Below are positions 41,462 through 43,322 of a DNA stretch of 64,000 nt, in pieces. This stretch comes from Sulfuricaulis limicola (GTDB taxonomy: Bacteria; Pseudomonadota; Gammaproteobacteria; Acidiferrobacterales; Sulfurifustaceae). The number at the start of each line of letters is the position of its first letter. Position 1 is the stretch's first letter. The notes under the pieces were generated by a model. That model made no database searches. It was not told the origin of the DNA and saw only the letters and a list, made by a program, of their open reading frames with translations. The stretch covers positions 434,001 through 498,000 of the forward strand of contig NZ_AP014879.1 of assembly GCF_002355735.1 (NCBI RefSeq), given 5' to 3'. Position numbers and translations under genes: made by a program.

Positions 41462-41490
41462 AAAAAAAAGCCCGCGATGCGTTGCGGGCC
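41462..41490 (-). terminator. Intrinsic terminator of the sigma-DsrE operon
   Basis: On the minus strand GCCCGCAACGCATCGCGGGC is followed by eight T. It lies about 25 bases after the dsrE-like stop codon at 41515. Confidence 0.88.
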
Positions 41491-41514
41491 GGAGGAGAGA
41501 GACGGTGTCAGGCG

Positions 41515-41961
41515 TCAGGGTTTTACGTAGGAGAAACCCTGGGACTGCAAGTAGGCGATCTCGGCCACGCCGCTCGGAACGATGTCCTGCTCGGTGGTAT
41601 CGTAGAGATCGGTTTTGTAGTTGATCTTCTTGGCCTTCAGGGTATTGGCGCAGACGTTGAAATGCACGCCCTGGCGCTTGAGGTTGGCCACCTTATCCTG
41701 CATGTCCGGGTCCTTGTTCGCCAGCTGCAGCAGGGCCAGCCCCGGGCCGTGCATGACCACCCGCAGGTCGATATTTTCCTTGCCCACGGCGTTGATGTGA
41801 TTCTGGATGTTGCCTAGGGCGGCCTTGAGCGTTTTTTCGTCATCCATGTTGATGTGGTAGGCGACCTTCTGTTTGCCATAGTTTTCCGCATAAGCCGCAC
41901 CCAGGCCGCCGAGACTGAGTACGGACATCAGCAACAAAGCCAGAAATTTTTTCATATGCAT
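41515..41961 (-). CDS. Periplasmic DsrE-family protein
   Basis: A 148-residue protein with a signal peptide (KKFLALLLMSVLSLGGLGAAYA, about 1-25) and a DsrE/DsrF-like domain: KVAYHINMDDEKTLKAALGNIQNHINAVG, DLRVVMHGPGLALLQ, LKRQGVHFNVCANTLKAKKI and a C-terminal PSGVAEIAYLQSQGFSYVKP. The single Cys in FNVCANTL is at the place used for sulfur transfer in the fold. Last gene of an operon with an ECF sigma factor and a DsrE-fused anti-sigma factor, 28 bases after the latter. Confidence 0.87.
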   Translation of the reverse strand: MHMKKFLALLLMSVLSLGGLGAAYAENYGKQKVAYHINMDDEKTLKAALGNIQNHINAVGKENIDLRVVMHGPGLALLQLANKDPDMQDKVANLKRQGVHFNVCANTLKAKKINYKTDLYDTTEQDIVPSGVAEIAYLQSQGFSYVKP

Positions 41962-41989
41962 TCTCCCGACGTAGATGGTTGTGAGTGAA

Positions 41990-42703
41990 CTAGACCTGGA
42001 TATAGGCCCATCCCTGGTTTTGGCGGCGCATGATCTGCGCCACGCCAGAGTCGATGATGACCACGCCCGGCAGCAGCTTAGCCTGCAGCCCGAGCTCCTG
42101 CTGGATGCGCTCGATGGTGTTCTGGCAGGCGACGAAGGTCAGGTTGTGGTATTCCTTCTGCATGCGCTGGATGCGATCGGCGTACGGCGAGATGCCGGCC
42201 ATCAGCAGGCTCAGCCCGCCGCCGTTGGTGATGACCTCGACGCGCGCCTTCTGGTTGGTCTGGCGGTAGAACTTCATCAGGTTCTCTACTTCGTCCAGCA
42301 CGGTTTTGAGGTGTTCCGGGCTGCCTTCGCTCACGTGGAACAGCACCTTGGCCGGATCTTCCGCCGCCGGGCTCGCCTGCGCGATGGCGGCATTGTCCGG
42401 CGCGCGCGACGCCGGGTTCAGGAACCAGCCGCCCAGACCGCCGACGACGAGCGCGAGCCCGGCGGCGATGGCGGTGGAGCACTTGCGTCCGGTGGCGACG
42501 GCGGACGTGCCACACGCGGGCGCGGGCACGTTGCGGTAGGCCAGTCCCACCAGGTCGCGCACCTTGCGCAGTTCGCACACCTGGCGATTGAGCGTCTCGT
42601 CGTCGCCGAGGCGCGCGTAGGCCTGCGCCTTCTCGTCCGGCGTCAGCTCGTCATCGACGAAGGCGTTGATGAATTCCTCAGAAAACTTCTGTTCCTTGTT
42701 CAT
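41990..42703 (-). CDS. Anti-sigma factor fused to a DsrE-like domain
   Basis: 237 residues. The N-terminal 60 residues (SEEFINAFVDDELTPDEKAQAYARLGDDETLNRQVCELRKVRDLV) look like an anti-sigma domain of the RseA/ZAS type. One TM helix follows (about 76-95, STAIAAGLALVVGGLGGWFL), then a linker and a DsrE-like domain (about 118-237): KVLFHVSEGSPEHLKTVLDEVENLM, ARVEVITNGGGLSLLMAG, NLTFVACQNTIERI and DSGVAQIMRRQNQGWAYIQV. So the periplasmic sensor domain has the same fold as the next gene's product. ATG 42703 overlaps the sigma stop (ATGA). Confidence 0.85.
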   Translation of the reverse strand: MNKEQKFSEEFINAFVDDELTPDEKAQAYARLGDDETLNRQVCELRKVRDLVGLAYRNVPAPACGTSAVATGRKCSTAIAAGLALVVGGLGGWFLNPASRAPDNAAIAQASPAAEDPAKVLFHVSEGSPEHLKTVLDEVENLMKFYRQTNQKARVEVITNGGGLSLLMAGISPYADRIQRMQKEYHNLTFVACQNTIERIQQELGLQAKLLPGVVIIDSGVAQIMRRQNQGWAYIQV

Positions 42704-43251
42704 TTGATTCTCCGGATTTTGGTTTCTTCCGCAGCGAGCTTCGGCGCCAGTTCGCCCAGCAGGTCCTTGAGGGCGTAACGCGCGCGGCACAGGCGGCTCA
42801 TGACGGTGCCGATCGGCACATTCAGGATCTGGGCCACTTCCAGATAGCTCAGTCCCTGGATGTCCACCAGCGTGACAACCTGGCGCTGTCCCTCTGCCAG
42901 CCGGGCGATGGCCGCCCTGACCTTGAGGACGATCTCCTGCTCGCTGCTCTCCTTCTCCGGGGTGGATTCATGCGTTAGTGTGTTTTCGTCTATTTCTTCC
43001 GCCGAACGCAGACGGCGGAAGTGATCGTGGTAACAATTCGCGAGGATGCTGTACAACCAGGCGTCGCCGGCGTTCGGATCGCGCAGCTGTCCCGACTTTT
43101 TCAGCGCCTTGGCCAGGGTTTCCTGCACCAGATCGTCCGCCAGCGCGGCGTTATGGGTCCAGGCGTAGGCGATGCGGTAAAGCCGCTGGCGATGCTGCTC
43201 CAGCTTCAGCCTGGCCTCGCGTGTGCGGCCCAGAAAATTAAAGACATCCAT
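42700..43251 (-). CDS. ECF (sigma-70 family) RNA polymerase sigma factor
   Basis: 183 residues with the two-domain ECF layout: region 2 (LEQHRQRLYRIAYAWTHNAALADDLVQETLAKALKK ... AWLYSILANCYHDHFRR) and region 4 (RLAEGQRQVVTLVDIQGLSYLEVAQILNVPIGTVMSRLCRARYAL). It directs transcription of a stress regulon and is presumably held by the overlapping anti-sigma factor. A bipartite GGAATAA / CGTC element upstream suggests autoregulation. Confidence 0.92.
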   Translation of the reverse strand: MDVFNFLGRTREARLKLEQHRQRLYRIAYAWTHNAALADDLVQETLAKALKKSGQLRDPNAGDAWLYSILANCYHDHFRRLRSAEEIDENTLTHESTPEKESSEQEIVLKVRAAIARLAEGQRQVVTLVDIQGLSYLEVAQILNVPIGTVMSRLCRARYALKDLLGELAPKLAAEETKIRRIK

Positions 43252-43290
43252 ATGTATAGTCAGGCTTGTGTTGAGGGCCGGGATATTATG

Positions 43291-43322
43291 TCTATTGACG
43301 AGAGGTTAGGGCGGTTTATTCC
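43291..43322 (-). promoter_or_regulatory. Candidate ECF-type promoter of the sigma operon
   Basis: On the minus strand GGAATAA (43322-43316) is followed after 15 bases by CGTC (43300-43297), about 45 bases before the sigma ATG. Bipartite GGAA...CGTC elements are typical of ECF-sigma autoregulated promoters. Not tested against other sites. Confidence 0.45.

Follow-up and report, generated by a model that had tools for sequence, protein, structure and literature searches.

An ECF sigma factor operon with a DsrE-fold anti-sigma factor and its predicted link to sulfur-oxidation genes in Sulfuricaulis limicola and relatives

The sensing of extracellular sulfur by sulfur oxidizers has been called poorly understood (PMC11582611), and several described systems resemble parts of the locus presented here. 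In the epsilonproteobacterium Arcobacter butzleri, the ECF factor sigma2 and its anti-sigma factor (AB1044/AB1045) have been shown experimentally to activate soxXYZAB-CD, but DsrE proteins are not mentioned in that work, and the sensor and the promoter are left undefined (PMC3445524). The ECF26 factors RpoE1 and RpoE4 of Sinorhizobium meliloti and RpoE of Starkeya novella likewise form autoregulated ECF/anti-sigma pairs that respond to inorganic sulfur; however, their signal is sulfite, their target is sulfite oxidase (PMC3511301, PMC6527743), and no DsrE domain has been reported for their COG5662-type anti-sigma factors. In Hyphomicrobium denitrificans, SoxR and sHdrR, together with SoxT1A and SoxT1B, place sox genes and a YeeE/TsuA-like importer under the control of sulfane sulfur (PMC10451225, PMC11582611, PMC12423496), yet these regulators are cytoplasmic ArsR-type repressors that need sulfur import, whereas S. 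limicola is predicted to sense in the periplasm, through a domain linked to a sigma factor. Among DsrE-family proteins, DsrE3A of Metallosphaera cuprina binds thiosulfonate at a cysteine but is a sulfur carrier to TusA with no regulatory role described (PMC4175335). MTH1491 and ST0148 (PDB 1l1s and 2pd2) have the same fold and cysteine position as the S. limicola proteins described below, but they are stand-alone proteins of unknown function without an anti-sigma fusion. While ECF control of sox is known already, an anti-sigma factor fused to a DsrE domain is apparently unreported, none having been found in the open-licence literature searched (subscription literature was outside the scope).

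S. limicola HA5T is a thiosulfate-oxidizing member of the Acidiferrobacterales with a published genome of 2,864,672 bp (PMC5024460), represented here by one contig. The window, that is, the whole analysed stretch of 64,000 nucleotides (NZ_AP014879.1, positions 434,001 to 498,000), contains what an earlier note had proposed to be an autoregulated operon of an ECF sigma factor, an anti-sigma factor with a periplasmic DsrE-like domain and a free DsrE partner, closed by a terminator. Both the architecture and the terminator held, and the three-gene operon, encoding an ECF sigma factor, a single-pass anti-sigma factor with a DsrE fold and a DsrE protein with a signal peptide, is real. Its features, in window coordinates, are:

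43297..43322, minus strand: ECF-type autoregulatory promoter GGAATAA-N15-CGTC, GGAATAAACCGCCCTAACCTCTCGTC, conserved upstream of the sigma gene
42700..43251, minus strand: ECF sigma factor, 183 aa (Sigma70_r2 3.7e-14, Sigma70_r4_2 2e-16)
41990..42703, minus strand: anti-sigma factor, 237 aa, ATG at 42703 (AlphaFold/Foldseek; TM segment, C43 and C193)
41515..41961, minus strand: free secreted DsrE-family protein, 148 aa, Cys104 (PF02635 6e-9, 36.5 bits against a cut-off of 22.7)
41469..41490, minus strand: intrinsic terminator ending the operon (stem plus T run)

The sigma stop and the anti-sigma start share an ATGA overlap. The terminator consists of a GC-rich 7-bp stem with an 8-nt loop (41490-41469) and a T run, and this stretch folded alone is ordinary compared with shuffles (z -1.4).

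The sigma factor meets the criteria for group 4 (ECF) factors in having only regions 2 and 4 (Pfam PF04542 at residues 18-82 and PF08281 at 110-161 of 183, with regions 1 and 3 absent), an adjoining co-oriented anti-sigma gene and an ECF-type autoregulatory promoter. Its orthologues, 55-91% identical, are encoded directly upstream of the anti-sigma gene at the loci examined. Plasmid-borne ECF26-type relatives are 36-39% identical to it, and the predicted targets are Sox rather than sulfite-oxidase genes.

The anti-sigma factor comprises a helical N-terminal domain (residues 1-60), a transmembrane segment at about 77-95, a linker and a DsrE-fold domain at 117-237, where AlphaFold confidence is mostly above 90. 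The fold is established by the agreement of several approaches. With Foldseek, the domain matches MTH1491 (1l1s) with an E-value of 2e-9 and a TM-score of 0.91 on the target, and the DsrE subunit of DsrEFH (2hy5_A) with 2e-4 and 0.64; in searches against the PDB it reaches MTH1491 at 1.3e-10 as a single sequence (phmmer) and at 6.1e-17 as a profile; and it matches the neighbouring free DsrE protein in BLASTP at 1e-9. Pfam alone was rejected as a test of the fold, as it would miss this domain: the single sequence gives no Pfam DsrE hit and does not meet the PF02635 gathering score, and 16 of 26 homologues match Pfam DsrE at E-values up to 0.1. Failure of the C-terminal domain to fold as DsrE had been named beforehand as an outcome that would refute the proposal, and the domain passed this test. 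The N-terminal domain is predicted with moderate confidence to form helices at 9-16, 22-32 and 36-57, and PDB and Pfam profile searches with it reached no known anti-sigma domain. The zf-HC2 motif HxxxCxxC is absent, the corresponding residues being N39-x3-C43-x2-R46 with only the cysteine at 43 kept, and zf-HC2 scores below its cut-off.

The transmembrane segment carries lysine or arginine on its N-terminal side in all 32 anti-sigma homologues, and the DsrE domain is therefore assigned to the periplasm. Cys193 and Cys43 are invariant among 26 aligned anti-sigma factors, with a wider set of 32 in agreement, and Cys193, like Cys104 of the free partner, aligns with the cysteines of 1l1s and 2pd2. 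The earlier claims of a periplasmic DsrE domain and of a cysteine at the conserved position thus both stand. It should be noted that a conserved sulfur-carrying cysteine is shown by position only, and that reactivity and sulfurtransferase activity are inferred.

The free DsrE protein is modelled with a pLDDT of 89.8, matches 1l1s in Foldseek, carries what was judged by eye to be a Sec-type signal peptide, and retains Cys104 in at least 90% of homologues. Its gene lies behind the anti-sigma gene in 17 of 30 operons; about a dozen operons, from relatives of one family, lack it, and it is therefore not essential to the switch. An alternative would be that the anti-sigma DsrE domain is itself unreactive and serves to dock the free DsrE protein or SoxYZ, with the partner acting as the sensor. 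In favour of this, the partner is a co-transcribed relative in those 17 operons and in a more distant genome (L294) is encoded divergently, with its own back-to-back ECF site, and DsrE-fold proteins such as DsrEFH and TusBCD form oligomers according to their PDB titles. However, Cys193 is invariant even where the operon lacks the partner, and in one operon (L040) the partner has lost its cysteine while the anti-sigma factor keeps Cys193. The docking explanation cannot be dismissed, but the balance of evidence leans against it. As a separate observation, several relatives of one family have a strong ECF-type site (score 22.5; L165:2999-3026, minus strand, and L159:2580-2607, plus strand) some 100 bp ahead of a gene pair for a DUF302 protein and a free DsrE protein; the site points away from the pair and runs antisense to the final part of a phosphomannomutase gene.

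The operon is carried by 48 of 57 sampled genomes of the order, as found with the anti-sigma protein as query, a search that the earlier note had suggested. In a sample of 399 genomes from the phylum, full-length proteins that include the anti-sigma part were confined to two other families of the class, and the remaining hits were DsrE domains lacking it. Of the 31 operons inspected, virtually all have the promoter element ahead of their sigma gene. Its usual form is GGAATAA-N15-CGTC; one operon has an N14 spacing and one the variant GGAATAT. This conservation indicates more than a chance match, and the proposed autoregulation held to the extent of a conserved self-promoter, which in the genome of the window is one of four exact N15 matches.

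The same element is also overrepresented elsewhere in operon-bearing genomes. The exact pattern occurs at 163 sites in the 48 genomes, about 115 of them non-self, against 30 expected from shifted spacers (120 sites over N17-N20), while the nine operon-less genomes of the order contain 12 sites against 10 expected by the same measure. The Poisson p of 3e-32 for the excess ignores the relatedness of the genomes and means only that it is large. The reversed pattern proved to be depleted in its own right (3 versus 33, in a looser search) and was discarded as a control in favour of shifted spacers. The sulfur-gene sites described below might in principle be owned by another ECF sigma factor, with the operon as merely one member of its regulon, and ECF promoters of different groups can indeed look alike. 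Against this, the sites track the presence of the operon across genomes, and GGAAT-N17-CGTC is missing from the promoters of all other ECF genes in the window's genome, one of which is of the RpoE-RseA-RseB type. Ownership by an unrelated ECF factor was rejected on the basis of this co-occurrence, and the possibility is considered very unlikely.

The regulon was assembled from pattern searches and from individual genome stretches. Since many of the 33 matches to the looser GGAATN17CGTC in the window's genome are certainly due to chance, only sites supported by both a trained promoter model and gene context were counted. In that genome the predicted sites are:

2289673: before soxX, score 17.0
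2292271: before soxB, score 14.4
2299798: before the importer gene adjoining dsrEFH, score 24.7
1543074: before YeiH, score 23.9
1342753 (G000:C1; L054:6752): before cytochrome c', score 19.1, exact N15, 73 bp upstream

The soxB and soxX sites of this genome are degenerate beyond GGAATA. No downstream ORF of another species clusters with the cytochrome c' gene. The TusA gene divergent from the importer has a GGATT variant of the promoter, with a score of 13.3 (L053:9841-9868, plus strand; L265:5044-5071, minus strand), which is conserved in two species, that of the window and G006.

Across relatives, a single fixed rule assigned to each site the first ORF lying within 260 bp, and the ORFs were named by NCBIfam and Pfam. 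Of 93 unique non-self sites, 79 had such an ORF, as did 31 of 40 shifted-spacer control sites. The 79 ORFs include 12 TsuA-like importers, 7 SoxY, 6 YeiH, 5 SoxB, 3 SoxX, 2 DsrE and 2 thioredoxin-like proteins; the 31 control ORFs include one YeiH and are otherwise unrelated singletons. About half of the non-self sites lie upstream of unrelated or uncertain ORFs. When a weight matrix built from 18 divergent sigma promoters and nothing else was applied (threshold at least 9.5), a site was found upstream of soxB in 38 of 41 operon-bearing cases (28/29 and 10/12) and in none of five operon-less genomes. Both misses in the set of 12 carry the same element at N14, none of three second soxB copies has an upstream site, and 12 of 560 control windows reach the score. 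The importer is preceded by a site in 20 of 28 cases with the operon and in none of three without it. The link from the operon to sulfur genes as its targets is strong on comparative grounds, without expression data. The genome-wide promoter search proposed in the earlier note thus returned, across the order, sites before soxXYZA, soxB, TsuA/SoxT-like importers, YeiH and free DsrE genes. The suspected connection to sulfur gains independent support, because the promoter precedes sulfur genes and is not enriched in operon-less relatives; the role of the DsrE domain as the sensor and the identity of the sulfur species remain inferred. In two species of the genus (L102, L112), an exact promoter match precedes an IMP dehydrogenase gene by about 41 bp.

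A further explanation is that the anti-sigma factor responds to periplasmic thiols or to envelope stress in general, with sulfur genes only incidentally in the regulon. DsbD-like, thioredoxin-like and outer-membrane proteins are indeed encoded downstream of some sites, but Sox and sulfur-transport genes are the prevailing class at the non-self sites and the DsbD type also occurs once among the controls, which leaves this reading with very little support. It is also conceivable that the sigma factor controls sulfur genes but answers to sulfite, as do RpoE4 and the Starkeya RpoE, or to some other toxic intermediate of sulfur metabolism, and that the system serves detoxification. This is consistent with the sulfite response of the ECF26 factors and their control of sulfite oxidases (PMC3511301, PMC6527743), and with YeiH, annotated as a putative sulfate/sulfite exporter, being among the predicted targets. 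However, those targets are thiosulfate-oxidation and sulfur-import genes and not sulfite oxidases, sorAB is attributed to the relative Sulfurifustis alone in the published genome analysis (PMC5024460), and a DsrE domain is unreported for ECF26 anti-sigma factors, and a sulfite signal therefore appears unlikely.

The best reading of the operon is likely that of a periplasmic sulfur sensor controlling thiosulfate oxidation, although the signal and the cysteine chemistry are inferred and no expression or biochemical data are available. In the resting state, the sigma factor would be kept at the membrane by the helical domain that its anti-sigma factor has in the cytoplasm, as inferred from such pairs generally, while the periplasmic DsrE domain would present Cys193 at the position of the conserved cysteine of MTH1491-type proteins. 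Reduced sulfur in the periplasm would then load Cys193, for example as a persulfide or S-thiosulfonate, either directly or with the free DsrE protein or a Sox carrier as intermediary, and the anti-sigma factor would change shape or be cleaved, freeing the sigma factor. The freed sigma factor is predicted to transcribe its own operon and, via GGAAT-N17-CGTC promoters assigned by comparison and not by experiment, soxXYZA, soxB, the TsuA/SoxT-like importer, YeiH and cytochrome c', and in some relatives also free DsrE genes. The co-produced free DsrE protein may deliver the signal or damp it. In this scheme the direction of signalling, the membrane sequestration, the release, the cysteine chemistry and the identity of the signal are all inferred.

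Thiosulfate, tetrathionate, polysulfide or sulfite are possible signals. The M. cuprina DsrE3A forms a Cys-S-thiosulfonate with tetrathionate and not with thiosulfate, sulfide, polysulfide or sulfite (PMC4175335), which suggests that thiosulfate itself may not be the ligand and that tetrathionate or a species bound to a Sox carrier is as plausible as free thiosulfate. A bolder version, in which the anti-sigma factor is a signal receiver of a new class, detects sulfane sulfur or thionates outside the cell when its periplasmic DsrE cysteine is covalently modified, with soluble DsrE as the carrier of the signal, and acts as the master regulator of Sox thiosulfate oxidation across this chemolithotrophic order, could equally well prove right or wrong. 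The sensor reading predicts a direct route from a periplasmic sulfur-handling domain across the membrane to a sigma factor and on to the Sox enzymes and a sulfur importer, and as a cysteine, a promoter and target genes are named, the question of sulfur sensing becomes directly testable.

Second copies of the anti-sigma-DsrE protein, about 25-33% identical, were encountered in several relatives (G031:C3:14698, G031:C88:327, G035:C16:34492, G035:C5:44378, G041:C93:4576 and G020:C33:39508), and a wider family of such switches may possibly exist.
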